This document shows positions 36,851 to 61,311 of a stretch of 64,000 nt of DNA, piece after piece; the first letter of the stretch is position 1, and the number at the start of each line of letters is the position of its first letter. This DNA is from Paraburkholderia sp. Tr-20389 (lineage in GTDB: Bacteria; Pseudomonadota; Gammaproteobacteria; Burkholderiales; Burkholderiaceae): contig NZ_JAAGPD010000039.1 of the NCBI RefSeq assembly GCF_017104565.1, positions 53,286 through 117,285 of the forward strand. The letters run 5' to 3'. The notes beneath the pieces are model-generated. The model saw only the letters and a program-made list of their open reading frames with translations, made no database searches and had not been told where the DNA came from. Both the position numbers and the translations under genes were made by a program.

Positions 36851-38485
36851 TTGACGCTGAACGTCCTTCTCGTCGCCTCGGAGGCGATGCCGTTGGCGAA
36901 GTCCGGCGGTTTGGGCGATATGGTGAGTGCGTACGCCGCCGCGTTGCGCGATGCTGGCGTCGATTCGACCATTCTGTTGCCGGCGTATCCTTCAGCGCTG
37001 GAGCGCGCTGTCGGCGTCACGCCCATTTGCCGCATCAGCGGACTGCCGGGCGGCGACGCGCGTCTGTTGCGCGCGCACATGCCCGATACGGGCGTGCCCG
37101 TCCTTCTGCTGCAGATGGATCATCTGTTCAAGCGCGACAATCTCTATCAGGACGAACAGGGCCGCGACTATCTCGACAACGCGATCCGCTTCGCGTCGCT
37201 GTCCGCCGCGGCCACCCGTATCGCACGCGGCGTGCGCGGCGTGCAGAAACCCGACATCGTCCACGCGCACGACTGGCACACGGGTCTCACGCCGCTGCTG
37301 ATGAAGCTCGCAGGTGTCGCGGCGAAAAGCGTGTTCACCGTGCACAACCTCGCGTTCCAGGGCAACTATCCGCTCGCGCTCGGCAGCTGGATGGGCGTGC
37401 CGCCCGAGCTGCTCGCGCCTGCACTGACTGACCCGCGCAGCATCGAGTTCTATGGCGCGCTCAGCATGATGAAGGCGGGTATCGTGCACGCGCATCAGGT
37501 CGTGACCGTCAGCGAGAACTACGCGCGCGAGATTCTCACGCCGCATTTCGGGCATCTGATGGAAGGCGTGCTGCAGGCGTGCTCGCACAAGCTGTCGGGC
37601 ATCACCAACGGCATCGACATCGACACGTGGAATCCTGCTGCCGACCCGCTGATCGCGCGCGCGTACTGCGCCGACGACGTGCGCGGCAAGCAGGCCTGCA
37701 AGCGCGACCTGCAGCAGACCTTCGGCCTGAGCGTCGATCCTTTCGCGCCGATCGTCGCGATCGGCAGCCGCCTGACGTCGCAGAAGCTCGCCGACGTGGT
37801 GGTCGATGCGTTGCCCGTGATACTCGCGCGAGATCCGCGCCTTCAGGTCGCCATTCTCGGCAAGGGCGAAGCCTGGCTGGAAGCCGCGATGCGCGATCTC
37901 GCCGCTGCGTGGCCGCAGCGAGTCGGCGTGCACATCGGTTACGACGAGCAGCGCGCGCACATGCTGCATGCAGGCGCCGACCTGCTGCTGCACGCCAGCC
38001 GTTTCGAGCCATGCGGACTCACGCAGCTTTACGCGCTGCGTTACGGCACGATTCCCGTCGCCTCGCGCGTCGGCGGACTGCGCGATACGATCGTCGATTA
38101 CACGCCGGAGCGTTCGCCCGAACTCGGCTTGCCCGAAGACGGCGCAACGGGTTTTCTGTTCGATGGCGAAACGGCCGACGATATCGCCGCGGCCTTGCAA
38201 CGCGCGCTCGATGCCTTCATGCGGCCTTCGTCGTGGCACGCGTTGCAGCGCAATGCGATGCAAGGCGACTTTAGCTGGCGCAAGCCGGTGCAGGCTTACC
38301 TGAAACTGTATGGCAGATTGACGGATGCCCGTCCGGCACTACCGCGCGTCGATGTCGAACGTGTCGCGGCCGGCTCGGCGCAGCGTCGCGTGAATGTTGG
38401 CAGCGCGGTGGGCAATGCCGCGAACGCACCGGCGGCGTGGAGCAATGCGGCAGCATCGCAGGAGAGCGTGGCGCGCAGCGCGTGA
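36851..38485 (+). CDS. glgA: glycogen (starch) synthase, TTG start
   Basis: A 544-residue GT5 glucosyltransferase that extends alpha-1,4-glucan from ADP-glucose. The ADP-glucose site KSGGLGDM is at residues 17-24, and the GT-B C-terminal half has SRFEPCGLTQLYALRYGTIP. The start codon is TTG at 36851, eight bases after AGGAG; this fits the family N-terminus and there is no better ATG upstream. About 50 extra Ala/Asn-rich residues follow the usual end. glgX lies next to it on the opposite strand; glgB and glgC are not present here. Confidence 0.93.
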   Translation: MTLNVLLVASEAMPLAKSGGLGDMVSAYAAALRDAGVDSTILLPAYPSALERAVGVTPICRISGLPGGDARLLRAHMPDTGVPVLLLQMDHLFKRDNLYQDEQGRDYLDNAIRFASLSAAATRIARGVRGVQKPDIVHAHDWHTGLTPLLMKLAGVAAKSVFTVHNLAFQGNYPLALGSWMGVPPELLAPALTDPRSIEFYGALSMMKAGIVHAHQVVTVSENYAREILTPHFGHLMEGVLQACSHKLSGITNGIDIDTWNPAADPLIARAYCADDVRGKQACKRDLQQTFGLSVDPFAPIVAIGSRLTSQKLADVVVDALPVILARDPRLQVAILGKGEAWLEAAMRDLAAAWPQRVGVHIGYDEQRAHMLHAGADLLLHASRFEPCGLTQLYALRYGTIPVASRVGGLRDTIVDYTPERSPELGLPEDGATGFLFDGETADDIAAALQRALDAFMRPSSWHALQRNAMQGDFSWRKPVQAYLKLYGRLTDARPALPRVDVERVAAGSAQRRVNVGSAVGNAANAPAAWSNAAASQESVARSA

Positions 38486-46000: not shown

Positions 46001-47434
46001 TCACTTCGCAATGCGCAGAATGGCGGACGCGAGCTGGGCATAGCACGGTTTGATGTCGTTGATCGTCGCCGCGTAGCAATACACGCCGACGGGCTGCTTC
46101 GCGTCGAAGCAGCGGCTCGGACCATCTGCGACGTTGGCGATGCACTTCAGGATGTCCTGGCCGACCTCGCCGCTGCCCGCACCCGTCTTCGTCAGCAGCG
46201 ACGGACCATAGCCGAGCGCGAACACGTAGATCCCTTCCGCGCGCGCCTTGGCAGCCATCATCTCCATCAGGTTGCGCGACGCGTTGTTCACGTTCGCGTA
46301 CTTGATCAGCATGTTGCTCAGCTTCGAACTGGACGAGGCGACGTTCGGCATGCTGCTGGTCACGGTACGCGTCAGCGTCCCCGCGATGGGAGACGCCGGC
46401 GTGATCGGCAGCGTCGAGCTGGCGTCGGATGCGGCGTGCACGTCATACGTGGCGGGCATGCTGGTCACGTTGTCGGCGTAGTTGTCATGACAGCTGCTCT
46501 GCTGGTTCTGCACGCTCATGCTGTTGAACGCGCCTGGATTGTTGGACGTGGACGACGACGTCGGCGGGCTGTCGCCGGACACGATCGTGTAGCCGCCCGT
46601 CGCGCAGGTCGTCGTCGAGCCCTTGGTGAAGTTCGCTGCAAAGCTGTTGGGCGCGCCGTCCGAAAAGAACACGATCACGCGCAGACTGGACGGCTGCGTG
46701 ATCACGTGATCGAGCTGGTATTTCGCGTTCCAGATGGCATCCACGGAAGCCGTGTTGCCGCCGAAGCTGTAGCCGTTGATCTTCGTGGTCATCGTCGTGC
46801 GGTCGAAGCCGCGGCTCTGGTCGCTCTTGAACGGCACGTCGACCACGGTGCCCGTCGCGAAGTGCATCAGCGACACGCGGTCGGTCGACGTGTTGAAGTT
46901 GTTCAGGAAGCCCGTCGACCCTGACCGCACCGCCGCCTGCGTCGTCGAATCGCTCATCGAACTCGTCACGTCGATCACGAACGACAGATCCAGATCGCGC
47001 CGGATCGCCTGACCCGAGGTCGCGACATTGAGCACCTTGAAACCCTGGATCTGCATCAACGTCAAGGGCACGGATGCCTGCGCGGCGAGATCGATCGTCA
47101 CCGTGCCCTTGTCGATCTTGATCGACGGCGCGCTGAGCGACGCGGTCGAGCCGAGGAAGCCCGCTGGATAGTTCGCCGCGAAGAACGCATTCGCGGCAGT
47201 GGTTGCGTTGGTGATCTGCTCGTCCTGGCTCGCGCCGCGCGTAACGGCCTGGCCGGCAGCGATCAGCGCGCCGTCGACGGCGGAATCCAGTCGCGCCTTG
47301 ATCATGTAGCCGAGCCCCGCATCGATCGCGAGGCCGGCAATGCCGAGCAGCGCCACCAGCGACACCACGACGAGGATGCTCACCGAGCCCCGCTGGCGCG
47401 TGGGCGTACGCCTCGTTCTTCTGCAAGTTTTCAT
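46001..47434 (-). CDS. tadG: TadG-like pilus protein with VWA domain
   Basis: A 477-residue protein. An N-terminal TadE/TadG-like hydrophobic segment (GSVSILVVVSLVALLGIAGL) is followed by a large VWA domain whose MIDAS begins at VIDVTSSMSDS, where Thr fills the first Ser place. A C-terminal part has a Cys-containing loop. In Tad systems TadG helps surface anchoring of Flp pili. It is the last gene of the pilus locus. TACGGGG lies before the ATG. Confidence 0.85.
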   Translation of the reverse strand: MKTCRRTRRTPTRQRGSVSILVVVSLVALLGIAGLAIDAGLGYMIKARLDSAVDGALIAAGQAVTRGASQDEQITNATTAANAFFAANYPAGFLGSTASLSAPSIKIDKGTVTIDLAAQASVPLTLMQIQGFKVLNVATSGQAIRRDLDLSFVIDVTSSMSDSTTQAAVRSGSTGFLNNFNTSTDRVSLMHFATGTVVDVPFKSDQSRGFDRTTMTTKINGYSFGGNTASVDAIWNAKYQLDHVITQPSSLRVIVFFSDGAPNSFAANFTKGSTTTCATGGYTIVSGDSPPTSSSTSNNPGAFNSMSVQNQQSSCHDNYADNVTSMPATYDVHAASDASSTLPITPASPIAGTLTRTVTSSMPNVASSSSKLSNMLIKYANVNNASRNLMEMMAAKARAEGIYVFALGYGPSLLTKTGAGSGEVGQDILKCIANVADGPSRCFDAKQPVGVYCYAATINDIKPCYAQLASAILRIAK

Positions 47435-47473: not shown

Positions 47474-48106
47474 TCAGAACACGCTCATCGAATAGAGATC
47501 GGGCGACAGCGCGGGCGTCGTGACGCCGTTGCCCAGATCGATCGCGCCGACCAGCGGCGTCTGCACATAGAACGCTTCGACGGCATAGGCGATCTGGCCA
47601 TCGGAGAGCTTGCCCTTGAGCAGCGCGACCGGCTGCGGCGGCGTCTTGCCGCCGAGGCCGTTGCACGCACCGCTGCCGTCCGTCGCCCATGAGGTGCCCG
47701 CCGTCGAGCAGTTCCAGATCTTGCTGGCCGCGCCGCCATCGCCGCCGCCCGTCCATTTCCATTGCGCGACGACCGTTCCCGTGCAGCCGTTGCCCTTCGC
47801 ATCGCACCCCGTCGAGCCCATGATCTGCGTGATGTAGATCATGCCCTTCCCGCTCATGCTGAGCGGCGGCGTGGTGGCCGCGAGCGACGACATGATCGTC
47901 TGCATCGGATAGGTGGCTGCCGCGCGCGACGCGAGGTTCGCGCCTTCGCGGCTGACGTTGATGAGGATCATCTGCGCCTGCACGTTGCGCGCGATGTCGT
48001 AGAGCGGCAGCGCGACACCGAGCAGCAGCGGCAACAGCAACGCGAACTCGACGCTGACGATGCCGCGCGTCTTGTGGCGCCTCGTGAGCCGTGGTCTCGT
48101 CTTCAT
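47474..48106 (-). CDS. TadE/TadF-like minor pseudopilin
   Basis: A 210-residue protein with a TadE-like N-terminus (GIVSVEFALLLPLLLGVALP: Glu at +5 of the hydrophobic helix) and a periplasmic part of about 150 residues with several Cys (GCDAKGNGCTG). It should be cut by the prepilin peptidase and act in pilus assembly. It starts one base after the stop of the upstream TadE-type gene. Confidence 0.82.
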   Translation of the reverse strand: MKTRPRLTRRHKTRGIVSVEFALLLPLLLGVALPLYDIARNVQAQMILINVSREGANLASRAAATYPMQTIMSSLAATTPPLSMSGKGMIYITQIMGSTGCDAKGNGCTGTVVAQWKWTGGGDGGAASKIWNCSTAGTSWATDGSGACNGLGGKTPPQPVALLKGKLSDGQIAYAVEAFYVQTPLVGAIDLGNGVTTPALSPDLYSMSVF

Positions 48107-48107
48107 G

Positions 48108-48629
48108 TCAGAAGCCCTCGTTGCGCATGGTCGCGGCGACGCTGAAGTTGAAGAAGCCGCCGGGAAAGAACGAGCGGATCATCGGCGTAATCATCGGCCA
48201 TGCGCAGTTGACCTGCAGCACGACGATGTCGCCGGGATTGCCGAACATGTTCGACTGGTAGCTCGTGTCGCTCGCATAGCTCTGCGTCTTGCCGCTGTTG
48301 ACGGTGATCGCGTAGCTCGGATTGACGAGGGGATACAGGCCCATCGACTGATCCCTGATTTCCTGGATCACGGCCAGGTAGCGCTGCGGGTTCGACTGGT
48401 TCGGATCGAGCCCTGCCTGACCCGTCACGGCATAGCGCGCGCCCTCGCGCACCGCGTATTGCATCGTCAGGTTCACCCACAGCGCGATGCCGAGATCCAT
48501 CACCATGCACAACAGAAAGAACAGCACGGGCGCCACGAGCGCGAATTCAAGGGTCGCGACGCCGCCCTGGCGCCCGCCGCGCCTTCGTATGCGTGGCAGC
48601 ACGCGTGGATGATCACCTGTGGTTTTCAT
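48108..48629 (-). CDS. tadE: TadE-like minor pseudopilin
   Basis: A 173-residue TadE-family protein. A basic leader is followed by GGVATLEFALVAPVLFFLLCM, a pseudopilin helix with Glu at +5. The short periplasmic part is typical. TACGGGGAG precedes the ATG. It forms a tight group with the next TadE-type gene and TadG. Confidence 0.87.
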   Translation of the reverse strand: MKTTGDHPRVLPRIRRRGGRQGGVATLEFALVAPVLFFLLCMVMDLGIALWVNLTMQYAVREGARYAVTGQAGLDPNQSNPQRYLAVIQEIRDQSMGLYPLVNPSYAITVNSGKTQSYASDTSYQSNMFGNPGDIVVLQVNCAWPMITPMIRSFFPGGFFNFSVAATMRNEGF

Positions 48630-48652: not shown

Positions 48653-49627
48653 TCAGTGCATGCCGCTCATGGTCGGCAGCAGCTCATGTACGACGCGCAT
48701 CGCGGCAGGCCCGATCAGCACGATGATCAGCGTCGGGAAGATGCAGAACATCAGCGGAAAGAGCAGCTTCAGCGCGATCTTCGCCGCCTGCTCCTCGGCG
48801 CGCAGACGGCGCCTCGTGCGCAGCGCGTCGATGAACACCCGCAGCGAATCGCCGACGCTCGTGCCGAAACGGTCCGCCTGAATCAGCATCGACGTGAGCG
48901 TGTCGATGTCTTCGACGCCCGTGCGCAGCGCCAGATTGCGCAGCGCCTTGTCGCGCCCCGAGCCCGCGCGCAGTTCGAGCAGCACGAGTTCGAGTTCGTC
49001 CTTGAGTGCGTGGCTCTTCACGCCGATCTCTTCGGCGACGCGCTGCATCGCCGAGTCCAGCCCCAGTCCCGCTTCGACGCACACGGTCATCAGGTCGAGC
49101 GCGTCGGGCAGGTCTTCGAAGATCGTGCGCTTGCGCGACTCGACGAGACGGCTCAGCACCACGTTCGGCAGATAGAAGCCAAGCGCGGCCGACCCAAGCG
49201 TCGCCATCAGCAGGAACTTCTGCGCGTCCTCACCGGCCAGCAGCGTGATGCCGACCAGCGCGAATGCGGGCAGCGCGAGGGCGAGCAGCGTTTTCGCGGC
49301 GAAGTAGATCGCGGGCGCGCTGTCGCTGCGCAGCCCCGCATTCGCGAAACGGCGCCGCAACACCGACTTGTCCCAGTCGTCCTTCGGCAGCGACAGCCGC
49401 GCGACGTGATGCGACACCTTCGCGACCGTTTCCATCCACGCGGGACTTTCGTCGTCCGCGGCACCCGGCGCGCCGTCCATGCCTGCCATGCCCGCCGAAG
49501 ACGACGCCGCGATACCGTCGATACGGCGCTTCAGCGGATCGGGACGAAGCAGCGACATCGCCTTCCACGCCGCGCCGAACACGATCGCGAACATCGCGGC
49601 CAGCACGAGAATCTGTTGGGTTTCCAT
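48653..49627 (-). CDS. tadC: TadC inner-membrane pilus protein
   Basis: A 324-residue membrane protein of the type II secretion F (GspF) family. It has an N-terminal anchor (ILVLAAMFAIVFGAAWKAM), a cytoplasmic domain with VEAGLGLDSAMQRVAEEI, and C-terminal helices (LLFPLMFCIFPTLIIVLIGP). It forms the platform with TadB that couples the ATPase to pilus growth. The start at 49627 has AACGGGG before it. Confidence 0.9.
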   Translation of the reverse strand: METQQILVLAAMFAIVFGAAWKAMSLLRPDPLKRRIDGIAASSSAGMAGMDGAPGAADDESPAWMETVAKVSHHVARLSLPKDDWDKSVLRRRFANAGLRSDSAPAIYFAAKTLLALALPAFALVGITLLAGEDAQKFLLMATLGSAALGFYLPNVVLSRLVESRKRTIFEDLPDALDLMTVCVEAGLGLDSAMQRVAEEIGVKSHALKDELELVLLELRAGSGRDKALRNLALRTGVEDIDTLTSMLIQADRFGTSVGDSLRVFIDALRTRRRLRAEEQAAKIALKLLFPLMFCIFPTLIIVLIGPAAMRVVHELLPTMSGMH

Positions 49628-49691
49628 GATTTCCCCGTTTATTGCGTTGCCTGTGTTGTTTTCGTCGATCCGGTTTCGCGCTTGCACGCCA

Positions 49692-50672
49692 CTACACGCG
49701 GATGCGCACGGTCCTGCGCAGCCACAGCACGCCGAAGAACATCATCGACAGCGCGATACCCGCGATCTTCCGGCCCGTCTCGTCTTCCCAGAACACCTTG
49801 CAGTAGCCGGGATTCAGCACCGACAGCGCGGCGATCACGAAGAACGGCAGCAGGCCGAGGATCCACGCCGACAGCCGGCCTTCCGCCGACAGCACGCGCA
49901 CCTTGGCGAGCAGCTTGAGCCGCTCGCGGATGATGGTGGCGATGTTGCCGAGAATCTCCGCGAGGTTGCCGCCCGCCTCGCGCTGGATCAGCACGGCGAT
50001 CACAAAGTAGCGCACGTCGTCGACGGGCACGCGGCTCACGAGGTTCATCAGCGCGTCGTTCATCGACACGCCGCAATTGATCTCGTCGAACGCGATGCGG
50101 AACTCGCCGCCCAGCGGCATCGGCAGCTCGTCGGCGACCATGCCGAGCGAGGCGGGGAACGAGTGGCCGGCGCGCAATGCACGGGCGATCAGATCGGCGG
50201 CGTCGGGCAACTGGCGCTCCAGCTGCACGATGCGCTTCGCGCGCTTGCCGCGCAGATACACGAGCGGCAGCAGCGCGGCGCCACCCGCTATGGCCAGCGC
50301 GATCGCGAACGGCAGGTGCATCCCGCCGATGCCGAACAGCAGCCCGCCGACCGCACACGCGGCCGAATAACCGACGAAGCGTCCCACCGACCACGACAGC
50401 CCCGACTGCTGCAGATACAGGTCGAGCAAATGCACGCGCGGCATGTGCATCAGCACGCGCGTGAAGGTCGGCGATTCGCTCAGCAGACGCTGCTTGAGAA
50501 TCGACATCTGTTCGCCGCTCACGTGACCGCCCGCCGACATCGCGCGGATGCGCGCATCCATCCGCTTGACGACGGGGCCGTGCCGGCTGTTCCAGAACAC
50601 ATACACGCCTTCGATCAGCAGCACGATCGCGACGAAGCCGAGGACGGCAAATGCCAGCAATGTCGTATCCAT
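49692..50672 (-). CDS. tadB: TadB inner-membrane pilus protein
   Basis: A 326-residue partner of TadC, also of the GspF family. It has an N-terminal helix (LAFAVLGFVAIVLLIEGVYV), a mid helix pair, and the cytoplasmic motif ALRAGHSFPASLGMVADELP. Two C-terminal helices end at FFGVLWLRRTVRIRV. It comes 18 bases after tadA. Confidence 0.9.
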   Translation of the reverse strand: MDTTLLAFAVLGFVAIVLLIEGVYVFWNSRHGPVVKRMDARIRAMSAGGHVSGEQMSILKQRLLSESPTFTRVLMHMPRVHLLDLYLQQSGLSWSVGRFVGYSAACAVGGLLFGIGGMHLPFAIALAIAGGAALLPLVYLRGKRAKRIVQLERQLPDAADLIARALRAGHSFPASLGMVADELPMPLGGEFRIAFDEINCGVSMNDALMNLVSRVPVDDVRYFVIAVLIQREAGGNLAEILGNIATIIRERLKLLAKVRVLSAEGRLSAWILGLLPFFVIAALSVLNPGYCKVFWEDETGRKIAGIALSMMFFGVLWLRRTVRIRV

Positions 50673-50690: not shown

Positions 50691-52079
50691 TCAGACTTCG
50701 TAGCGTCGCGACGGATCGAACATCTGATCCGGCAGCGCGAGACCGAACGCGGCAAGCCGGTCGGCGAACTTGGGGCGCACGCCCGTGGCGCAGAAGTAGC
50801 CTTTGACCGTGCCGTCTTCCGCAACGCCCGTGCGCCTGAAGGTGAAAATCTCCTGCATGTTGATGATCTCGCCTTCCATCCCGGTGATTTCCTGGATGCT
50901 CATCAGCTTGCGGCGGCCGTCCGTGAGACGCGACGCCTGCACGACCACCGTGATCGCCGATGCGATCTGCTGGCGCATCGCCTTGATCGGCATCGTCAGG
51001 CCTGCCATCCCCACCATGTTTTCGAGGCGCGTCAGCGCGTCGCGCGGTGTGTTCGCGTGCAGCGTCGCCATCGATCCTTCGTGGCCCGTGTTCATCGCAT
51101 GCAGCATGTCGAGCGCTTCCGCGCCGCGCACTTCGCCGAGGATGATGCGGTCGGGGCGCATCCGCAGCGCGTTCTTCACCAGCGAACGCTGCGAGATTTC
51201 CCCTTTGCCTTCGATATTCGGCGGCCGCGTTTCGAGGCGCAGCACGTGCTCCTGGCGCAGTTGCAGTTCGGCGGCGTCTTCGATCGTGACGATGCGCTCG
51301 TCGTTGGGAATGAAGCCCGACAGCAGGTTGAGCATGGTCGTCTTGCCGCTGCCCGTGCCGCCCGAGATCAGCACGTTCAGCTTCGCCTTGATCAGCGCTT
51401 CGAGCAGTTGCGCCATCGCGGGCGTGAAGGACTGGTTCTTCACCATGTCGTCCACTTTCAGCGGATTCACGGCGAAGCGGCGAATCGACACGAGCGGCCC
51501 GTCGATCGCGGACGGCGGAATGATCGCGTTCACACGCGAGCCGTCGGGCAGACGCGCATCGACCATCGGCGTCGACTCGTCGATGCGCCGTCCGACGCGC
51601 GACACGATGCGCTCGATGATCTTCATCAGATGCGCGTCGTCGAAGAACGTGATGTCGGTCTGCTCGAGCTTGCCGCGCCGCTCCACGTACACGTGCTGCG
51701 ACGTGTTGACGAGAATGTCCGACACCGTCGGATCGGCGAGCAGCGGTTCGAGCGGTCCGAGTCCGAACATTTCGTCGTGCACGTCCTGGGCGAGACGCCG
51801 GCGTTCGATCTCGTTCATCGGAATCTTGTCTTCGTCGACGATGCGCTCGACCAGTTGCGCGAGTTCGCGCCTGATCTGTTCGGGCGTGAGGCGCTGCAGC
51901 TTGTCGAGTTCGACGCGGTCGATGATCTTCTCGTGCACGTTCATCTTCAGCTGCTGATACGCGCGCCGCGCGGCCATGCTCTCGGCCGTGTTGCCTGCTG
52001 GCAGGTCGGCCGAGGCGGCACCGCCGGCCGCGCCGTTCATCGACACACTCTGCAATCTCAGTTGATCGCGCAATGACAT
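50691..52079 (-). CDS. tadA: TadA/CpaF secretion ATPase
   Basis: A 462-residue hexameric ATPase of the type II/IV secretion family. Walker A is GGTGSGKTT at residues 240-248. The Asp and His boxes and Walker B ([13 protein letters not shown]) are present, with [12 protein letters not shown] as His box. It drives pilus assembly. AACGGGGGAACC lies upstream of the ATG. It is next to cpaE and tadB as in other Tad loci. Confidence 0.95.
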
Positions 52080-52119: not shown

Positions 52120-53322
52120 TCAATGGCCCGTCTTCAGTTGCGGCACGTCGCGCGGCTTCGACGCGAACAGGCGCGCAAGGCCGCCCTTCTTCTCTTTCTG
52201 CGGCGCGGGCGACAGCACATGCGCGAAGGCCACGATGTCCTGCGCGAGCGCGCTGCCTTTCGCCACACTCATGATGGGCAGCCCCTGATCGAGCGCCGCG
52301 CCCGCCTGTTTGTCGTCGCGCGAAAAGCGATGCGCGATGCTCATCCCGAAGCTCTGCTCGAACGCCTGCAGATCGACGGGTGCGTGTTTGTCGTACTGGT
52401 TCACGAGCACGCTGATCTTGCTGCTCGCGTAGCCGAGTTCGTTGAAGATGTCGAGCATGCGGCGGCCCGCGCGCAGATAGAGCACGCTCTGGCGCACCAG
52501 CATGCAGATGCGTTCGCTCTGGTCGAGCACGTGGATCGCGAGCGGATTGATCCCGAGGCCGAGATCGACGATCACCGCGTCGTATTGCGAGCGCGCGAGC
52601 GCGAGCACGCGTTCGAGCTGGGCGGGGCGCAGGTCGCCCGCGCGGATCGGATCGCCCGCTCCCGCCAGCACGTCGAGGTTCTCGTTCATGTGCATCACAC
52701 AGGAGTCGAAGAACGCGTTGTCGAGCCGGTCGATCTGCGCGCACACATCGGCGAGCGTCGCGGCCGGCGTCTGGTCGGCCACCAGCAGGCTGGCGTCGGC
52801 GAACTGCTGGTTGGCGTCGACCAGCAGCACCCGCTTGCCGCGCTGCGTCGCGAGCGCATGCGCCACGTTCATCGCGATGAAGGTCGTGCCCGTGCCGCCC
52901 TTGCACGAAGTCAGCGATACGACCCGCCCTTCGCGCCGCGTACCCGCGGTCTTCTTGCCCCACACGTGCGAAAGCTCGCTTGCGAATGCCTGCGCGTCGA
53001 GCGGCCAGGGCAGCACATGGCGCACGCCGGCCCGCATCGCCGCCATCAGCAGCGCCGTCGAGGGCGCGGGCGTCACCAGCATGCAGTTCAGCTGCGGCAC
53101 GTGCGACAGCGCTTCCTCGATCGACGCCATGTCGTGGGGCTCGAGATCGACATCGTCGACGATCAGCAGATCCGCCGACTTGATGTCCGCGGCGTGCGCC
53201 CGCAATTGCGGCACCGAGCCGTGCTGCACCCGCACGCGATGCGCGATGCCGCATCCCTCCAGCAACTGCTCGATCTTCTGCGAGCGGTCCGGACCCGATG
53301 AGATGAGGAGGATGTCGATCAT
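52120..53322 (-). CDS. cpaE: CpaE/TadZ localisation protein
   Basis: A 400-residue protein. An N-terminal receiver-like domain ([20 protein letters not shown]) is followed by a MinD/ParA-type ATPase whose Walker A reads KGGTGTTF at 141-148, missing the second Lys, as is usual for TadZ/CpaE. It directs the pilus machine to its place in the cell. Confidence 0.9.
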
Positions 53323-53420: not shown

Positions 53421-53708
53421 TCAGTTCGAGTTGGGCAGGCCGACCGCGAACACGTTGACAGGCGGCGGCGGCGACGTGAACGACTTCGCGTAGTTCTTCT
53501 GGATCGCCGTGGCCGTCGCGCCGTCGACGCCCGCCACCGGGTCGGTGTTCATGCCCGCGTTGGGATTGAGCGTCTGCATTTCCTTGATCTGCTGAACGGA
53601 ACTGCCGAAGGTCGCGTCCCAGTGCGGCGTCGAGGTCAGGCAGCCTCCGAGCGTCACGCTCGCCGCCGCGCACAGCGACGCGCGGATCAATGTCTGGATG
53701 GTTTTCAT
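53421..53708 (-). CDS. small Tad-locus lipoprotein
   Basis: A 95-residue lipoprotein (SLCAAASVTLGGCLTS; lipobox TLGGC). The mature part carries LNPNAG and TDPVAGVDGATATAIQKNYAKSF, a pattern seen in short proteins of beta- and gammaproteobacterial Tad loci next to the secretin gene. It may be a secretin pilotin or CpaD-like partner; this is not certain. GGAGACC lies before the ATG. Confidence 0.78.
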   Translation of the reverse strand: MKTIQTLIRASLCAAASVTLGGCLTSTPHWDATFGSSVQQIKEMQTLNPNAGMNTDPVAGVDGATATAIQKNYAKSFTSPPPPVNVFAVGLPNSN

Positions 53709-53744: not shown

Positions 53745-55865
53745 TTATTGCGTGCGAGCGTTGTCGCCGGTTTCTCGGGCCTGCTGCGTGGCGGGCTGCG
53801 TGGCGGCCTGCGTGGCGGTCTCTGCGGCAGGCTGCGCGACGGCGGTCGTGCCTGCCGTTGCCAGCGGCTGCACGCTCACGCTCGCCGTCTGCACGGCTGC
53901 CGTATGCACGTCGGTGGGTTCGACCCGCGTGATCGGGCCCGAACCGTCGCCGCCGTTGCCGCTCTCGGGTGCGCGAGGCGTGGCGGGTGCGCGGATCGCG
54001 TCCGACACCGGCTGCGTGCGCTCGGGCACCGGCACCGGCGTCGGCGCCGTCGTGCCTTGCGAGGTGATGACGGGCGTCAGCACCACGGGCGCAGCCGAAC
54101 CCGTCGTCGGAATCGAGCCGCCCTTGACGGGCATCGGCGACGGAATCGCATTGGCGGGCACGGCGGCGCCCGTCGACGGCGGCGCGGCTTCGGCGGGCGC
54201 CTTCGGATTCTTGCCTTCCATGTTGCCCGTGAAGAGCACGCTCGCTTCCGTCACCTTGCCGAAGTGATCGGTCGGCAGCGGGTAGTTCTGCGGCAGCGGT
54301 TTCGCGAGGCGCGGCGTCACGACGAACACGAGTTCCGTCTTGTCCTCCTGGAAGTTCGTGCTGCGGAACAGCGCGCCGAGCACGGGCACTTCGCCGAGTC
54401 CCGGCAAGCCCTTGAGCGTGCCCGTCACGTTGCTCTTCATCAGACCGCCGATCGCGAAGCTCTGACCGTCGTACACCTGCAGCGTGGTCGACGCGCGGCG
54501 CGTGGTGATGAGGGGCAGCACGGCCGTCGTGCTGACGGTGCCCGCCGTGACGGCGACGCCTGTCGGCGACAGCTCCGACACTTCCGGCGAAACCTTGAGA
54601 TTGATGCGGCCGTTGTCGAGCACGGTCGGCGTGAAGGTCAGGCCGACGCCGAACGTCTCTTCCTGCAGGATGATCGTCGTGCCCGCCGCGCCGTTGCTTT
54701 GCGGCACGGGGATGAACACCTTGCCGCCCGCGAGGAAGCTCGCCTCCTGGCCGCTGATCGCCATCAGGTTCGGCTCGGCCAGCACCTTGACGAGCTGGTC
54801 GGTCTTCTGCGCGTCGATGGCGAAGTTGAGCGGCTTGTTGTTCGCCTTCGAGCCGAGCAGCGCGCCCATGCCGCCCGACAGGAAATCGGCCAGCAGGCCG
54901 AAGCTCCAGCTGCCCGTGCCGCCCTGGATGTTCGCGGCCATGCCGAGCTGATCGATCAGCGTCTTCGACACTTCGGCCACTTTCACTTCGAGCATCACCT
55001 GCTGCGGCGCGGCCACATGCATCATGTTGACGATGCGCTCGTTGTTGCCGTTGCCCGATGCGCCTGCCGGCCTCAGCACGGCGGGGATCATCGCGCCGCC
55101 CTGGGCGCCGCCCGCATTGGCGGGCGCGGCGACGGGCACGGGCGCCGCCTGGCGCGCCACATACGCACGCGCCAGCTCGACGATGCGCTCGGCCTTCACC
55201 GAGTCGGACACGGTGCCCGTCAGCACGAGTGTGTCGGCGGCGGCCTTGACCTGCACGCCCGATTCTTCCGGCATCAGCACGGCGAGCGTCTGCTGCAGGC
55301 CGCCGGGATCGGCGCCCACGGCGACGTCGATGATCGTGCACGAGCCGCTGCGGCCCTGCACGATCATGTTGGTCGTGCCGACGTCGGTGCCGAGCAGATA
55401 GAGCGTTTGCGGCGACACGAGCATCGCCTGCACGATCGACGGATTGCCGACCGTGCGCGTCTTCACCGACTCGCGCACGTTGACCATCGTCGATTTGCCG
55501 ACGGGAATCGTCACCGTCTGATGATCGGCGATCGCGCCCGTGCAGTTCGGGCCCTTGCCGCCCTGCGCCACGCCCGCGGCAGCCGCCGGCGCTGCGCCGC
55601 TCATGCCGATCGTCAGATGCACGGCGCCGCCGTTCGACGCCATGGTCATCGGCAGCGGCGCCTGGCTCGCGGCTTCCTGGCTGGCGGCCTGCGCGGCGGG
55701 CAATGCCCACAGGCAGGCGCCCATCAGTCCGCAGACGCTCGCCTGGATCAGACGCGCGCGGCGCGCGAACGGTGCGGCGTGCGTGCCGATGTGCGTCGGC
55801 TGCGCGGCTTGCTTCGTGTCGCGTCCGCACCGTGCGTGCGCGCGCTGGCTATCTCTCGCGTTCAT
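53745..55865 (-). CDS. cpaC: RcpA/CpaC outer-membrane secretin with long C-terminal tail
   Basis: A 706-residue secretin forming the outer-membrane pore for the Flp pilus. A basic leader and signal end at AQA near residue 60. N-domains follow (NVRESVKTRTVGNPSIVQAM; a BON-like segment), then the secretin core (QVMLEVKVAEVSKTLIDQLG to ELVFVVTPRLAKPLPQNYPL), ending about residue 530. Residues 551-706 form an extra Pro/Thr/Ala-rich tail (ATQAATQPATQQA at the end); CpaC/RcpA proteins are usually near 450-520 aa. GGGGGTAGGAC precedes the ATG. Confidence 0.92.
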   Translation of the reverse strand: MNARDSQRAHARCGRDTKQAAQPTHIGTHAAPFARRARLIQASVCGLMGACLWALPAAQAASQEAASQAPLPMTMASNGGAVHLTIGMSGAAPAAAAGVAQGGKGPNCTGAIADHQTVTIPVGKSTMVNVRESVKTRTVGNPSIVQAMLVSPQTLYLLGTDVGTTNMIVQGRSGSCTIIDVAVGADPGGLQQTLAVLMPEESGVQVKAAADTLVLTGTVSDSVKAERIVELARAYVARQAAPVPVAAPANAGGAQGGAMIPAVLRPAGASGNGNNERIVNMMHVAAPQQVMLEVKVAEVSKTLIDQLGMAANIQGGTGSWSFGLLADFLSGGMGALLGSKANNKPLNFAIDAQKTDQLVKVLAEPNLMAISGQEASFLAGGKVFIPVPQSNGAAGTTIILQEETFGVGLTFTPTVLDNGRINLKVSPEVSELSPTGVAVTAGTVSTTAVLPLITTRRASTTLQVYDGQSFAIGGLMKSNVTGTLKGLPGLGEVPVLGALFRSTNFQEDKTELVFVVTPRLAKPLPQNYPLPTDHFGKVTEASVLFTGNMEGKNPKAPAEAAPPSTGAAVPANAIPSPMPVKGGSIPTTGSAAPVVLTPVITSQGTTAPTPVPVPERTQPVSDAIRAPATPRAPESGNGGDGSGPITRVEPTDVHTAAVQTASVSVQPLATAGTTAVAQPAAETATQAATQPATQQARETGDNARTQ

Positions 55866-55937: not shown

Positions 55938-56789
55938 TCAAAAACATTCCTGTCTGCTCTGCGATCCGTCGATCACGCTCACGCAGTTCGACGGCGCCCG
56001 TGCAACGACCTTGTGCACCACCGGCTTCGGCGCAGGGGCCGGTGCGGCGGGCGGCGCGGCGACGGGAATCTTCAGCAGCGTGGCCTTGGTCGCGCCTGCC
56101 GTCGATGTGTCCTGCGGATCGACCTGGTTGCGCAGCACGAGCGACAGCGAACCGATGCTGCGCGCGAGGTCGATCTTCTCGGCCTGCTCGGGCGTGACTT
56201 CGAGCGTCACGGCGTCGACGACCTTCGGCTTGGTTTCGTCGCGGCCCGCTTCCTGCGCGACGGCGAGCACGAGGATCTTCTCGAGCACGATCTTCGAGAT
56301 GTTCTGATCGCGGCCCGATCCGCCGCTGCCTTCACCCTTGCTGCCGTTGTCCTTCTCGGTGTTCACGAGAATGTCGACGTAGTTGCCCGGCAACGCGAAG
56401 CCCGCGACGCCGATCACGTCGTTCACGCGCACCGTGATCGCGCGCTTGCCTTCGTTGATGACGGCCGACAGGCCGCCCAGCGTGCCGACGGGCGAGAGCT
56501 TCGCCTCCAGCACGGGTTCGCCGCGCGACAGGCTCGCCTTCAGCACGCGGCCTTCGAGCTTCTTCACGTCGTTGAACGTGCCGGGCGGCACGCTGCCCGC
56601 GGGCCAGTCGGACACCTTGAGCATTTCGGGCGAGACGCGCTGGCCGAGACTCATGTCGGCCGATGCGATCACCACCTTGGTCGTGGATGTCGACGTCTGC
56701 TGCACCATCCAGCGCGCCGCGAACACCACGGCCGCAAGACCGGCCGCCGTCGCGACGAGCAACATCACCAACGCGCGAGCGTTCTTCAT
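55938..56789 (-). CDS. cpaB: CpaB/RcpC pilus assembly protein
   Basis: A 283-residue periplasmic protein with an N-terminal anchor (ALVMLLVATAAGLAAVVFAARW), an SAF/AFP-like domain (VVIASADMSLGQRVSPEMLK) and the RcpC domain (GKRAITVRVNDVIGVAGFAL). It helps to build or stabilise the secretin. AGGAG lies before the ATG. It is followed by the secretin gene. Confidence 0.9.
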   Translation of the reverse strand: MKNARALVMLLVATAAGLAAVVFAARWMVQQTSTSTTKVVIASADMSLGQRVSPEMLKVSDWPAGSVPPGTFNDVKKLEGRVLKASLSRGEPVLEAKLSPVGTLGGLSAVINEGKRAITVRVNDVIGVAGFALPGNYVDILVNTEKDNGSKGEGSGGSGRDQNISKIVLEKILVLAVAQEAGRDETKPKVVDAVTLEVTPEQAEKIDLARSIGSLSLVLRNQVDPQDTSTAGATKATLLKIPVAAPPAAPAPAPKPVVHKVVARAPSNCVSVIDGSQSRQECF

Positions 56790-56853: not shown

Positions 56854-57315
56854 TCAGTCCGTCAGATCGCGGTCGTCGCAGGGATCGCGGTACTGCGGGC
56901 CGGGCGCTTCGTCTTCGCTCTGCGCGGCCGGGTGCCGGACCGGCTGCGGAGCCGCGAGCCACAGCTGCGCGGCCTGCCGCTGCCCGGCGGCCAGCGCGCG
57001 GCGTTGCGCTTCGCGCTTCGCCACCCATTGCGCGACCACCAGCACGTCGATGAGCGCGAGCATCGTGTGTTCGCGTTGCCGGCGTCCCGCAGGCGTGAGC
57101 AGCGCGCGCTGATGCAGATGGATCGCCGGATTCGCCGTGTGGCGCAATTCCGGCGCCGCGTCCACGTAGTACATTGCGTACGCGGTGGACGCGGTCTCCG
57201 TGCGGCGCGGCCGGCCGGTCTTGCCGGCCAGGTTTGCGCCGCTGCCGTTTTCCGCCGATGCGGAACGGCTTCCCCGTGCGTCGGCCGTCTTGCGGCCTGA
57301 ATCATTTGTCTTCAT
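56854..57315 (-). CDS. Tad-locus protein of unknown function
   Basis: A 153-residue protein with a disordered basic N-terminus (Lys/Arg/Ser/Gly-rich) and a helical middle (RREHT-like segment, MLALIDVLVVAQWVAKREAQ) that could be a membrane-dipping or coiled-coil helix, then a Pro/Gln/Asp-rich acidic end. GGGGGTAGTC precedes the ATG at 57315. I do not recognise the family. It lies between the prepilin peptidase and cpaB. Confidence 0.6.
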   Translation of the reverse strand: MKTNDSGRKTADARGSRSASAENGSGANLAGKTGRPRRTETASTAYAMYYVDAAPELRHTANPAIHLHQRALLTPAGRRQREHTMLALIDVLVVAQWVAKREAQRRALAAGQRQAAQLWLAAPQPVRHPAAQSEDEAPGPQYRDPCDDRDLTD

Positions 57316-57705
57316 GACTACCCCCGTATCTGGCCGTCCTTCTTTCGAAGGCGCTTTCCAGGTGGACGACCCCACGTCCACACCCCGTTCCTGACTTTGC
57401 TTCCGGCCTTTCTGTGAAGGCTCTCTGTTATCTTGCTTCACTGCGGCTGCGTTCCTTGCTGCGTCGTCGCGGGCTTCGGCTGTTTTCAGGTGCTGTCCGC
57501 CGTTCGCCCGATGCTGGTTGTCGTCGTCGCGTTGTTTTCTTGTTGTTGTCCTGCCCTGATTCGCCTGCTTCGCGTCTCTTGCAGTTCCCCGCCACTGCCC
57601 CTCGTTACCGCCCCCTCGTTACTGCTGTCCGCTGCGGCTATCTCACCCGCTTCTGTGTTATCGCTTCGTTGCCGTGCGGCCTGTTATGTCGTCCCTCGTC
57701 CCTCG
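57316..57705 (-). other. gene-free gap inside the Tad locus
   Basis: 390 bases, the largest gap inside the locus. The minus-strand sequence is purine-rich (the plus strand has many CT runs, such as TTGTTTTCTTGTTGTTGTCC at 57533 and nearby). No credible gene or clear hairpin is visible. An internal promoter or long leader for the genes from 57315 down is the likely content. Confidence 0.4.
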
Positions 57706-58257
57706 TCACACGCTCACGAACAGCGAGAGCATCGTGCCCGTCGCGATGGCGACGCCGTACGGCAGCGTTCCCATCGTCGGCCGTCTCGTTCTCGTGCCGC
57801 CCGCGTCCTGCGGGCTGTCGCGCCGGGCGCCGCCCGATGCGACCGACACATCGATCAGCACGGCCGCCATGTTGTGCAATCCGGCGTACACCTGCCGGCG
57901 CCGCAGCATCTCGACGAGCGCCCACACCCCGCCGACCGCGCAGACGATCAGCGCCGCCTGCAACGCGCCGCTCGCGCCGCAGAAACAACCGACGGCCGCC
58001 ATCAGCTTGACGTCGCCCGCCCCCATCATCCGTAGCAGATAGCCGGGCAGAAGCACGGCGCCGCCCGCAAGCGCGCCGCCCACCCACATCTGCACTCCCT
58101 CCATCGCGCCATGCAGCGCGCACTGCACGACGAGCCCTACGCCCAGACCGACGATGACCAGCCAGTTCGGAATGCGCCGTGCGTGGATGTCGTAGATCGC
58201 GGCAATCACGACCAGCGCCAACACGCATGGACCCACTGGAAAAGGCACGCCGTTCAT
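57706..58257 (-). CDS. cpaA: prepilin peptidase (TadV/CpaA)
   Basis: A 183-residue aspartic membrane protease that cleaves Flp and TadE-type prepilins. Catalytic Asp in YDIHARRIPNWLV and GAGDVKLMAAVG are both visible. Six hydrophobic helices. The start at 58257 gives the family N-terminus. It follows flp by 123 bases. Confidence 0.9.
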   Translation of the reverse strand: MNGVPFPVGPCVLALVVIAAIYDIHARRIPNWLVIVGLGVGLVVQCALHGAMEGVQMWVGGALAGGAVLLPGYLLRMMGAGDVKLMAAVGCFCGASGALQAALIVCAVGGVWALVEMLRRRQVYAGLHNMAAVLIDVSVASGGARRDSPQDAGGTRTRRPTMGTLPYGVAIATGTMLSLFVSV

Positions 58258-58380
58258 CGAAAACTCCGTTGTCTGGTTACGACTGTTGAATCTTGCCGGC
58301 CGCCGCTGCCCTGTCTCGAACGCTTGCGTTGGCGAGACAGGGTGCGGTGCTGGCTTGCCGACTGACACTCGACCGCAGAA

Positions 58381-58560
58381 TCAACCTGCGGCCACTGCTG
58401 CAAGCTTGTCGGCAATGGTGGAGAAGGCCTGCCTCAGGTTGGTGCCGAGCGTCGTGACTGTCGTAATGATCGCCACGGCGATCAACCCGGCCAGCAGGCC
58501 GTATTCGATTGCCGACACGCCGTCTTCTTCGCGCAGGAATTGCAGGATTGCGTTCTTCAT
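58381..58560 (-). CDS. flp: Flp-type pilin, second copy
   Basis: A 59-residue major pilin. The cleavage site G|VSAIEYGLL (Glu at +5, Tyr at +6) and the hydrophobic helix GLLAGLIAVAIITTVTTLG are typical. It differs from the neighbouring pilin at six positions. TACGAGGG lies before the ATG. The stop is followed by the prepilin peptidase gene. Confidence 0.92.
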   Translation of the reverse strand: MKNAILQFLREEDGVSAIEYGLLAGLIAVAIITTVTTLGTNLRQAFSTIADKLAAVAAG

Positions 58561-58601
58561 CTGGTCCCTCGTAGCCTGTGAACCGGAATCCGGCTGTTGG
58601 A

Positions 58602-58781
58602 TCAACCTGCCGCAACCGCTGCGAGCTTGTTCGAGATCGTGGTGAAGACAGTCCGCAGGTTGGTGCCGAGCGTCGTGACCGTCGTAATGATCGCCACGGC
58701 GATCAGCCCGGCCAGCAGACCGTATTCGATTGCCGAGACGCCGTCTTCTTCGCGCAGGAATTGGTTGATTGCGTTCTTCAT
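58602..58781 (-). CDS. flp: Flp-type pilin, first copy
   Basis: A 59-residue major pilin with the same cleavage site and helix as the second copy. It is the first gene of the locus after the upstream sigma-54 promoter candidate. TACGGGGGACATC precedes the ATG at 58781. The longer frame upstream to 59105 is not needed. Confidence 0.93.
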   Translation of the reverse strand: MKNAINQFLREEDGVSAIEYGLLAGLIAVAIITTVTTLGTNLRTVFTTISNKLAAVAAG

Positions 58782-58842
58782 GATGTCCCCCGTAGGAAAT
58801 GAGATGTCACATGGCCGCCGCGCCCCATGCGCATTGACCGGG

Positions 58843-58880
58843 AAAAAACCGTCCTTTCGGACGTACTGCAAGCGGCTTGC
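58843..58880 (-). terminator. terminator-like hairpins in the flp leader
   Basis: Minus strand, in order of transcription: GCAAGC-C-GCTTGC (58880-58868), then CGTCC-GAAA-GGACG (58863-58850) followed by G and six T (58848-58843). This is a short, GC-rich, GNRA-looped stem with a T run, 62 bases before the flp start codon and about 215-235 bases after the predicted transcription start. Confidence 0.5.
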
Positions 58881-59088
58881 TCCATCGGAAGCGTCGTCAT
58901 GGTCGCGAATGGCCGTACGTCGTACGAACCATTCGCGCCACTTTCTGCCGACGTCCGCCCCCCTTTGGCTCCGCCGCCCCCACAGTCGCATTGGCAATCC
59001 CCGGCCGCGACTGCGAAGTACTGTGCTGCTGCCGGAGACTTCCTTTGGCCTTGCTTTCCGGCTGCAGCGTTTCGTGTGACAGCCATAT

Positions 59089-59104
59089 CGCAACGGGTGT
59101 GCCA
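59089..59104 (-). promoter_or_regulatory. sigma-54 (RpoN) promoter candidate for flp
   Basis: Minus strand reads TGGCACA-CCCG-TTGCG, against the consensus TGGCACG-N4-TTGCA. The GG and GC dinucleotides have the required spacing. The transcription start would be near 59078, some 297 bases before flp. Confidence 0.7.
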
Positions 59105-59802
59105 TGCAGGCGCAAACCCTTGTCGCGCCGTGATCCTGCTTCGGGCATGTGCTGTTTTGCGGCGGAACGCGGCACGCGATGTTGCGTACCCGTAACGTCC
59201 TTTCGATGTGAAAGCCAGATGTTCGCTGGACCGCGCAAGCGCTTCCACGAAGTCGCCAATCCGCTGCGTCCGGCCGGAAAGGCCCGTGGAAGCGGGGTTC
59301 CGGTCAGAACTACCGTACGCGGGTCGTCGTCGCGGTATGCGGCAAAGCGATTGTCAAATGTGTCGCACAGTTGAGACGCAGCCAGCGGCATCGTGACAAA
59401 ACCCGCTCAGCCTTGCGAAACAAGGCTTCCAACGATCGAATCCGAGATCGGGCCGCTTCATGACGAGCGCTTTGGAAACGTTTTAAGCGCCGGTAGAAAT
59501 TGCTCGAAGCGAGCGGCTGCATCCAGATTTACGCTGATACAAAGCCCCTACCCATTCATTTATCTTTGTTTCCACCGCGCCATTCGTGCGACGATAAAAT
59601 CGCTTTGCAACGGATGGACGCATAGCACGAGCCACACGACATTGCGGCGCGCATGACCCGCATGTAGAAGAAAAACGAAAAAGACTCAGGTTCGCCCAGC
59701 TGAACCCTCAATAGACCAACTGTTTTGCCGTAGTACAAGGATCACTGGCCTTGAGGCATCATGAGAACGATGCGCAAGGGCAACGTCCAACCCGGGGGTA
59801 AC

Positions 59803-61311
59803 ATGAATTCCACTTGCACAACGGGCGCTTCGGACCGCACCGTGCTTTGTGTGGCATCGATGCCCGACGAAGCACTCGCGGCCTTCCTCGCCGATGCCGG
59901 ATGGCAGGTCGTGCACGCCAGAACCACGGCGGCGGCGGAGAAACTGCTCGATCGCGGCGACATCAAGGTCGGTCTCATCACGCTGCCCGACGACGTGACG
60001 CAGCAGCAGCTGTCGGCGTTCGAGGCCTGCATGCGTCACGGCGAAGCGAACTGGATCGCGCAGATCGCGCCGGGCCAGGCGACCGACGAGCTCACCAGCC
60101 GCTTCATCCTCGACTACTGCTTCGACTTCGTCACCGCACCCTGTCTCAACGACCGGCTGATCTTCGCGCTCGGCCACGCGCATGGCCTGTCGAACCTGCG
60201 ACGCGCGAGCTTCCGGCCGCAGCCGTCGCTCGGTGCGCACGGCATGGTCGGCCATTGCGAGCCGATGCAAAAGCTGTATCGGCGGATCGAAAAATGCGCG
60301 CAGACCGACGCGCCCGTGTTCATCGCGGGCGAATCGGGCACGGGCAAGGAACTGACCGCGCGTGCCGTGCACGACAGCTCGACGCGCGCGCAGCAGACGT
60401 TCGTCGCGATCAATTGCGCGGCGATCCCGCCCACGCTGTTGCAGGCCGAACTGTTCGGCCATGAGCGCGGCGCCTTCACGGGCGCGCTGCAACGCAAGAT
60501 CGGCCGGATCGAACATGCGAACGGCGGCACGCTGTTCCTCGACGAAATCGGCGACATGCCGCACGAATGCCAGGCCGTGCTGCTGCGCTTCCTGCAGGAA
60601 GGCACGATCGAGCGCCTCGGCGGCAACACGCCCATCAAGGTCGACGTGCGCGTGATCTCGGCGACGCACGTGAATCTCGAAGCCGCCGTGAAGGACGGAC
60701 GTTTCCGCGCCGACCTGTATCACCGGCTATGTGTGCTGCGGCTAGACGAACCGCCGCTGCGCGAGCGCGGCAACGACATCCGCCTGCTCGCCGACTATGC
60801 GCTCAGCATGTATCGCCAGGACGGCACGCACAAGATTCGCGGCTTCTCCAGCAGCGCGGTGGTCGCGCTGTCGAACTACGACTGGCCCGGCAACGTGCGC
60901 GAGCTGATCAACTGCGTGCGGCGCGCCGTCGTGATGGCGGAAGGCCGCTTCATCACGGAAGGCGATCTCGGCTTGCCGGAAGTGTCGAAAGCGCGCACGC
61001 GCACGCTCGCCGAAATCCGCACGGCGGCCGAAATCGAAGCGATCGAAGAAGCGCTGCGGCGGCACGGGCACAACCTGTCGGGCGCGGCGACCGATCTCGG
61101 CGTATCGCGCGCGACGCTGTACCGGCTGATGAACGCGAACCGGATGAATCCCGACGCGAACCCGATGCGGCCGGCGCGGCGCACGGGCGGCGAAGGCCGC
61201 ACGGACGGTGGCGCGGAGGGCGCCGACGGCTCGTCCGGCTCGGGCAATCCGGAAGACGACGAGGCGGGCTCACACAGGTCGCACGCCGTAGCGGCAGCAT
61301 CGGCAGACTGA
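59803..61311 (+). CDS. sigma-54-dependent activator with pseudo-receiver domain (VpsR-like)
   Basis: A 502-residue bacterial enhancer-binding protein. Residues 1-135 resemble a receiver, but the phosphorylation site is missing (segment DIKVGLITLPDD). The AAA+ domain has Walker A GESGTGK at 176-182, the sigma-54 contact loop GAFTGA at 223-228 and Walker B FLDEIGD at 245-251. A Fis-type helix-turn-helix (NLSGAATDLGVSRATLYRLM) and a Gly/Asp-rich tail follow. Domain order is that of VpsR, which binds cyclic di-GMP in Vibrio; binding here is an inference. CCGGGGGTAAC precedes the ATG at 59803. It is divergent from flp. Confidence 0.85.
   Translation: MNSTCTTGASDRTVLCVASMPDEALAAFLADAGWQVVHARTTAAAEKLLDRGDIKVGLITLPDDVTQQQLSAFEACMRHGEANWIAQIAPGQATDELTSRFILDYCFDFVTAPCLNDRLIFALGHAHGLSNLRRASFRPQPSLGAHGMVGHCEPMQKLYRRIEKCAQTDAPVFIAGESGTGKELTARAVHDSSTRAQQTFVAINCAAIPPTLLQAELFGHERGAFTGALQRKIGRIEHANGGTLFLDEIGDMPHECQAVLLRFLQEGTIERLGGNTPIKVDVRVISATHVNLEAAVKDGRFRADLYHRLCVLRLDEPPLRERGNDIRLLADYALSMYRQDGTHKIRGFSSSAVVALSNYDWPGNVRELINCVRRAVVMAEGRFITEGDLGLPEVSKARTRTLAEIRTAAEIEAIEEALRRHGHNLSGAATDLGVSRATLYRLMNANRMNPDANPMRPARRTGGEGRTDGGAEGADGSSGSGNPEDDEAGSHRSHAVAAASAD

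Follow-up and report, generated by a model that had tools for sequence, protein, structure and literature searches.

A sigma-54 promoter element and a conserved structured RNA upstream of Tad pilus genes in Paraburkholderia

Described sigma-54 systems and the control of Tad pili

Qrr and CrcZ are sigma-54-dependent sRNAs. The locus described here was found in the window, i.e. the whole stretch of 64,000 nucleotides of Paraburkholderia sp. Tr-20389 that was analysed. It resembles Qrr and CrcZ in that a sigma-54 promoter precedes a structured RNA, and differs from them in that this RNA has no Rfam match and is followed by a same-strand gene match in 60/60 copies examined. For Tad pili, Kram reportedly described in 2008 how a cascade of termination acts at the tad locus of Aggregatibacter; judging by that title, termination within Tad control would be common to both loci. 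We know of no sigma-54 element and of no such leader RNA at the Aggregatibacter tad locus. The rpoN regulon of Burkholderia cenocepacia is said to be the subject of a study by Lardi from 2015, which might list Flp genes.

Dedicated regulation of flp/tad has been described in other bacteria and is, according to the available parts of the sources, not of the sigma-54 type there. Tad/Flp control in Pseudomonas aeruginosa involves PprB and SigX (PMC10418997), and flp/tad of Pectobacterium is controlled by a two-component system, independently of the sigma-54 activator VasH (PMC3767616). For P. fluorescens PF07, a table in the available part of the source (PMC9207406) has a dash in its flp/tad row under the rpoN mutant. 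A sigma-54 site is predicted before the type IVa pilin gene pilA of Ralstonia solanacearum, with PehR as the proposed activator (PMC4371752). The locus in the window is similar insofar as a predicted sigma-54 site precedes a pilin gene; pilA is different in its type (IVa) and its activator, and the available part of that source mentions no leader RNA. The same source gives predicted sites TGGCATAGC....TTGCA before the hypothetical genes RSp1093 and RSp1094 of R. solanacearum GMI1000, which resemble the promoters described here.

BerB of B. cenocepacia is an RpoN-dependent c-di-GMP effector in the control of the bep/berA exopolysaccharide (PMC5552954). Like the activator in the window, it is a GAFTGA sigma-54 activator, it comes from a related genus, and it acts with RpoN on genes for surface life. 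BerB is said in the available part of that source to lack an N-terminal input domain, whereas the window activator has a VpsR domain; the predicted target also differs, being here a Tad operon with a leader RNA. The VpsR domain (PF20161) and the structure relative 7v2b connect the window activator to VpsR of Vibrio cholerae. According to the sources, as far as available, V. cholerae VpsR is without the GAFTGA motif (PMC3162934), which the window activator keeps, and acts without RpoN (PMC5552954).

No published sigma-54-controlled Tad locus and no report of this RNA were found in the available text of the open-licence literature. This agrees, for that literature, with the preliminary description of the locus, whose author knew of no well-described Tad locus under sigma-54 control. 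A link between sigma-54 and Tad is absent from the available parts of PMC7494200, PMC6335245, PMC5979394, PMC5748707 and PMC4676750, as is an flp/tad RNA of Burkholderiales from those of PMC2864571. Based on sequence comparison, we propose RpoN control of Tad pili across a bacterial family. Tad control in Paraburkholderia would be tied to a VpsR-type regulator that carries GAFTGA and may link c-di-GMP to sigma-54, and a conserved RNA outside Rfam is added, which probably gates the operon.

Promoter element, activator and tad genes

The activator, the promoter region and the genes of the locus are the following.

59803..61311, plus strand: divergent sigma-54 activator with a VpsR domain (residues 4-124), AAA+ and a Fis-type HTH
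59113..59122, minus strand: promoter-proximal element CAAGGGTTTG, from the comparison of 60 loci
59089..59104, minus strand: sigma-54 (-24/-12) promoter element TGGCACACCCGTTGCG, from sequence match and conservation
58602..58781, minus strand: flp1 pilin (Flp_Fap, Pfam)
58381..58560, minus strand: flp2 pilin (Flp_Fap, Pfam)
57706..58257, minus strand: tadV prepilin peptidase (Peptidase_A24, Pfam)
56854..57441, minus strand: orf195, start uncertain, no Pfam match, tblastn relatives in some loci with activator and tad
55938..56789, minus strand: cpaB/rcpC (Pfam)
53745..55865, minus strand: cpaC/rcpA secretin (Pfam)
53421..53708, minus strand: orf95, small operon protein, no Pfam match
52120..53322, minus strand: tadZ/cpaE-like ATPase (AAA_31, Pfam), 400 aa, named tadZ by position
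50691..52079, minus strand: tadA/cpaF ATPase (T2SSE, Pfam)
49692..50672, minus strand: presumably tadB, by position
48653..49687, minus strand: presumably tadC, by position
48108..48629, minus strand: presumably tadE-like, by position
47474..48106, minus strand: presumably tadF-like, by position
46001..47434, minus strand: presumably tadG-like, by position

By Pfam, this is a Tad/Flp locus with two Flp pilins, a prepilin peptidase, CpaB, a secretin, a ParA-like ATPase and TadA. The labels tadB, tadC, tadE-, tadF- and tadG-like are presumptive and follow gene order.

The preliminary description had reported a near-consensus sigma-54 element with exact -24/-12 spacing, which was confirmed. TGGCACACCCGTTGCG has 11/12 specified letters of the consensus TGGCACRNNNNTTGCW, its last base being G, the -24/-12 spacing is exact, and the element is conserved at orthologous loci. 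The distance to the flp start at 58781 is 323 nt. The element points away from the activator, the start of which (59803) is at 698 nt. The motif by itself is weak evidence and is not above chance in the window, since allowing up to 2 mismatches gave 27 sites in the 64 kb compared to 30 expected in shuffles. TGGCAYN5TTGC was counted 50 times in the genome of 9.0 Mb, against 26 for a reversed control pattern. TGGCACACCCGTTGCG is significant because of its position and its conservation, not because of the motif count. A scan of 58300-59900 for sigma-70 promoters found none.

Independently of this locus, a perfect sigma-54 consensus, TGGCACACCGCTTGCT, is present at 36713-36728 of the window (plus strand). 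It lies about 120 bp before the ORF 36851-38485 (start uncertain), which we take from its sequence to be glycogen-synthase-like.

The activator matches VpsR (PF20161, E 2e-27), AAA+ (PF00158) and HTH (PF02954) in Pfam, and its GAFTGA loop at 60469-60486 is intact; the sigma-54 activator with intact GAFTGA that had been claimed next to the locus is thus present with all three parts. Among solved structures, 7v2b is a relative. The input of the activator is probably c-di-GMP, by analogy with BerB and judging from the VpsR domain. Two RpoN proteins, recognised by Sigma54_DBD, are encoded in the genome.

For comparison, the named loci whose activators are closest were taken, 17 in all, from Paraburkholderia, Trinickia, Pararobbsia and Chitinasiproducens. 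In 14/17 of them, a site that matches 9-10 of the 10 core letters and is directed away from the activator lies 706-909 bp from the activator start; the remaining three (L019, L021, L023) have no such site. The tad loci were surveyed separately. From a selection of 85, 65 remained after removal of 11 in which neither flp nor an anchor gene was recognised and of 9 duplicates. For each, the 700 bp preceding the first flp were searched, and the top-scoring site was compared to dinucleotide shuffles (p ≤ 0.05). A scan of relatives for the element upstream of flp had been named as a check in the preliminary description, and it was positive: 57/65 distinct Burkholderiaceae tad loci have a sigma-54-like site ahead of their first flp, compared to 5/65 on the reverse strand, the genomes being kin and the counts non-independent events. 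The window's own site was matched by 0/200 dinucleotide shuffles. Distances from site to flp are typical for each lineage (160-616 bp), and TGGCC[CT] often stands instead of TGGCAC.

No significant site was found in eight of the 65 tad loci, namely L166, L168 and L170-L174 (group g1) and L213 (group g12). The flp type is similar in six of the seven g1 loci and different in L168. As these seven belong to the window's genus group, Tad loci within a single genus are not all controlled alike.

The pairing of promoter and activator at tad, the other part of the preliminary description, does not extend to the family, where the flp sites mostly have no adjoining activator. An activator match upstream of flp was found in 0/49 tad-centred stretches with 3.9-8.8 kb of upstream sequence, nine of which duplicate loci whose activator sits 5.6-10 kb away. 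In wider stretches, an activator match lay further upstream in the single g3 locus and the single g24 locus included, whereas the two g11 and two g12 loci gave no match, one of these four being covered on one side only. Since the activator is mostly not beside flp in the family, the close divergent pair is confined to some of its members, and the promoter type is not.

Two further elements were sought around the promoter. CAAGGNTT is present in 39/60 loci and starts exactly 18 nt before the T of the -24 element in 37 of them (17 and 28 nt in the others). An inverted repeat considered as activator site was counted in 27/60 loci, which is not significant against shuffles (mean 18.6, maximum 30).

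The leader RNA and the genes behind it

Two features lie between the promoter and flp.

58891..59018, minus strand: conserved structured RNA block, from covariation and conservation, starting 86 nt from the promoter
58843..58863, minus strand: terminator-like hairpin CGTCCGAAAGGACG (58863-58850) with U-tract (58848-58843), between RNA and flp

The earlier claim that the promoter drives tad therefore stands insofar as the tad operon is downstream; it has to be modified insofar as a structured RNA and a terminator-like hairpin come before flp.

The RNA block consists of a stem P1 with a small apical stem, a GGCGGAG strand and a long hairpin P4. Over its ~130 nt, mean pairwise identity is 0.67 compared to 0.53 and 0.50 in the flanking leader. 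Alignment A1 (23 loci) gave a structure of 31 pairs with 88.5% of cells paired. Both sides have changed in 15/31 pairs, and 0/500 shuffles were as high; when the partners were slid as a control, pairing dropped to 35-46%. RNAalifold missed stem P1 on A1, the strands of which were split by MAFFT gaps, and the named structures were counted instead. Single folds gave z = -4.45 for the window block and from -0.76 to -3.55 for six other loci; two of the seven (z -0.76 and -0.94) are no better than shuffles. In 26/27 loci, 78-118 nt separate the promoter from the start of the block; in L016 the distance is 150 nt. No Rfam family matches the RNA, the best match being DnaX with 19.7 bits against a gathering threshold of 35. 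By its compensatory changes, which exceed the controls, the leader RNA is a conserved structured RNA as judged from the alignments.

A CG[CU]C motif plus U-tract stands at the end of the block in 21/27 loci, typically as CCUCGCC pairing with a GGCGGGG strand. These 21 loci, with the terminator helix added, formed alignment A3 with 39 pairs and 91.4% of cells paired; double changes were seen in 16/39 pairs, a value reached by 0/500 shuffles. Of the cells of the added helix, 98.6% are paired, and one of its pairs is compensatory. The window is without the CG[CU]C form, and most of the terminator helix that model R2 describes is disrupted there. Leaders of the window class, in which tad lies beside the activator, have a hairpin with a U-run in 10/14 cases, compared to 0/14 antisense and a shuffle mean of 0.2, and no hairpin in 4/14. 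A linker in the window is, by eye and for the window only, complementary to the 5' arm of the hairpin. A looser terminator scan of 57 tad leaders of all genera gave 33 sense and 36 antisense; because there is no difference between the strands, no terminator is claimed for other genera. Short CCC...GGG hairpins with U-runs were seen ~30 nt before flp in L203, L204, L208, L126 and L137, tad loci belonging to several genus groups.

The distribution of the RNA across the genus was determined in 145 genomes (E ≤ 1e-6) with covariance model R1, from which the promoter had been left out. R1 found 116 copies in 84/145 genomes. Sixty of the 116 copies were examined as a non-random set comprising 17 with neither activator nor window-type tadA, 13 with tad, 13 with activator and tad, and 17 with activator. 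Five of the 60 (L334, L337, L343, L347, L354) are on contigs of loci used for building the model and 55 are new. A sigma-54 site (at least 9/10 letters) was found 78-119 nt upstream of the RNA in 60/60 copies (reverse strand, 2/60), and for the 55 copies outside the model in 55/55, at 85-119 nt (reverse strand, 1/55). The terminator motif is present in 44/60 copies (42/55 outside the model) and absent in 16/60, including all 13 with tad beside the activator. Outside the genus, R1 gave three weak matches in 249 genomes of the family; no sigma-54 site precedes them (best 7, 7 and 6 of 10 letters), and they were judged to be chance matches and rejected as true RNA copies. Five further loci matched at E 0.03-0.9.

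The activator ortholog (E ≤ 1e-180) is present in 95/145 genomes. RNA and activator occur together in 82 genomes, the RNA alone in 2, the activator alone in 13 and neither in 48 (Fisher's exact test, 9e-24), and 80/116 RNA copies are divergent from the activator at 777-1014 bp. Window-type tadA (≥ 84% identity) was found in 33/145 genomes and TadA relatives at E ≤ 1e-150 in 103/145. Among the RNA genomes, 30/84 have window-type tadA and 54/84 do not; TadA of either kind is present in 62/84 and absent in 22/84. The conserved unit in the genus, as seen in the genome sequences, is the activator, the promoter and the RNA; the adjoining tad operon is optional.

Two RNA copies were found in 32 genomes. 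The second copy of G201 and G164 precedes a tad operon on another contig, and its 16-nt promoter is identical to that of the activator locus. At the site syntenic with the tad operon of G201, three genomes (G104, G020, G065) have lost tad and kept the promoter, the RNA, the U-tract and a sterol-desaturase-like gene. The 17 copies beside neither activator nor window-type tadA precede a sterol-desaturase-like gene in 16 cases and tadZ in one. Within 1.5 kb downstream of the RNA, 60/60 copies have a match on the same strand to one of the known cargo genes.

In many close relatives, what follows the promoter is not flp: it is an ORF of ~100 aa with a lone tadZ behind it, or just this ORF. All 17 loci of this kind that were examined have the ORF. 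It shows a weak similarity (E 0.006-0.32) to the C-terminal part of a long ORF which four tad loci carry between tadV and cpaB. In loci of class B, tadZ is the sole tad gene retained. Ten lone TadZ (L009, L010, L012, L013, L015, L016, L118, L119, L121, L124) are intact with 400-404 aa, although the neighbouring tad genes are gone, and are under purifying selection (45 pairs, omega 0.07-0.42). On the more far-reaching view given below, genomes with a selected lone TadZ behind the leader may use TadZ for something besides Tad pili, and its position behind the same leader makes the role of TadZ outside Tad pili a testable question.

What the conserved unit may do

The reading which we prefer, and hold to be fairly probable, is that the activator and RpoN start the transcript and that the leader RNA gates exchangeable downstream genes. 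The unit would comprise a VpsR-type sigma-54 activator, a -24/-12 promoter ~0.6-1.1 kb off which points away from it, and a leader RNA of ~130-160 nt starting ~100 nt past the promoter. The activator, presumably the divergent one and probably tuned by c-di-GMP, would open the RpoN-polymerase at the promoter, whereupon the nascent leader RNA would fold. A terminator-like hairpin with U-tract at or after the end of the RNA would decide on polymerase entry into the downstream genes. The cargo in this genome would be the flp/tad operon, pilus expression thus needing initiation and then read-through. Elsewhere in Paraburkholderia, this front end would serve a small ORF, either by itself or together with a lone tadZ, or else a sterol-desaturase-like gene. 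The comparison of loci supports the conservation of the promoter, the structure of the RNA, the terminator-like elements, the linkage to the activator and the exchange of cargo. From these we infer transcription from this site, the identity of the activator, the c-di-GMP input and the control of read-through.

A more far-reaching view is offered tentatively: the RNA, and not the pilus, may be the primary sigma-54 product. It would represent a new family of RNAs, with either ligand sensing or trans action as its function, to which different surface-related genes (the tad operon, the orphan TadZ and the sterol desaturase) have been attached and from which they have been detached.

A leader acting in cis is favoured by the same-strand gene downstream of 60/60 copies. 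An RNA acting in trans also fits, because the RNA persists through changes of cargo and has a terminator-like end. It could thus be a sigma-54-dependent trans-acting sRNA that ends at its own terminator, with tad, tadZ and the sterol desaturase as bystanders or reached by occasional read-through, which we regard as rather doubtful. RNA and terminator would indeed outlast tad on this reading, as in the 54/84 RNA genomes without window-type tadA and the 22/84 without TadA at E ≤ 1e-150, and both the 32 genomes with two copies and the three second copies which retain promoter, RNA and U-tract at sites equivalent to the G201 tad operon are in line with it. However, a same-strand gene match follows every one of the 60 copies examined, each copy is the first element past this single promoter, and copies with tad next to the activator have no terminator helix (0/13).

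It is unlikely that we are dealing with a simple sigma-54 promoter whose leader happens to be long, in which folding of the RNA means stability at most and the tad-less loci are remnants of recent loss. In favour of this, the tad leaders of other genera are as long (160-616 nt from site to flp) and the RNA model finds no such RNA there. The covariation, the identity of the block (0.67 compared to 0.53 and 0.50 in its flanks) and the spacing of 78-118 nt between promoter and RNA in 26/27 loci argue against it, and the lone tadZ, being under purifying selection (omega 0.07-0.42), is not simply decaying. It is very improbable that the match arose by chance and that a sigma-70 promoter at another place drives tad, for although the motif alone occurs at chance frequency in the window, the site is present at 14/17 orthologous loci, 57/65 tad loci and 60/60 RNA copies, and the sigma-70 scan of 58300-59900 was empty.

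Matches to the activator or to its VpsR domain were also noted elsewhere. Five further VpsR-domain matches are present in the genome (on C80, C38, C22, C31 and C44), one of them below the family cut-off; the protein on C80 is a paralog of the window activator with 54% identity. Plasmid pPT65 of Paraburkholderia terrae (65 kb; L161) carries a tad operon together with a sigma-54 activator that is 52% identical.
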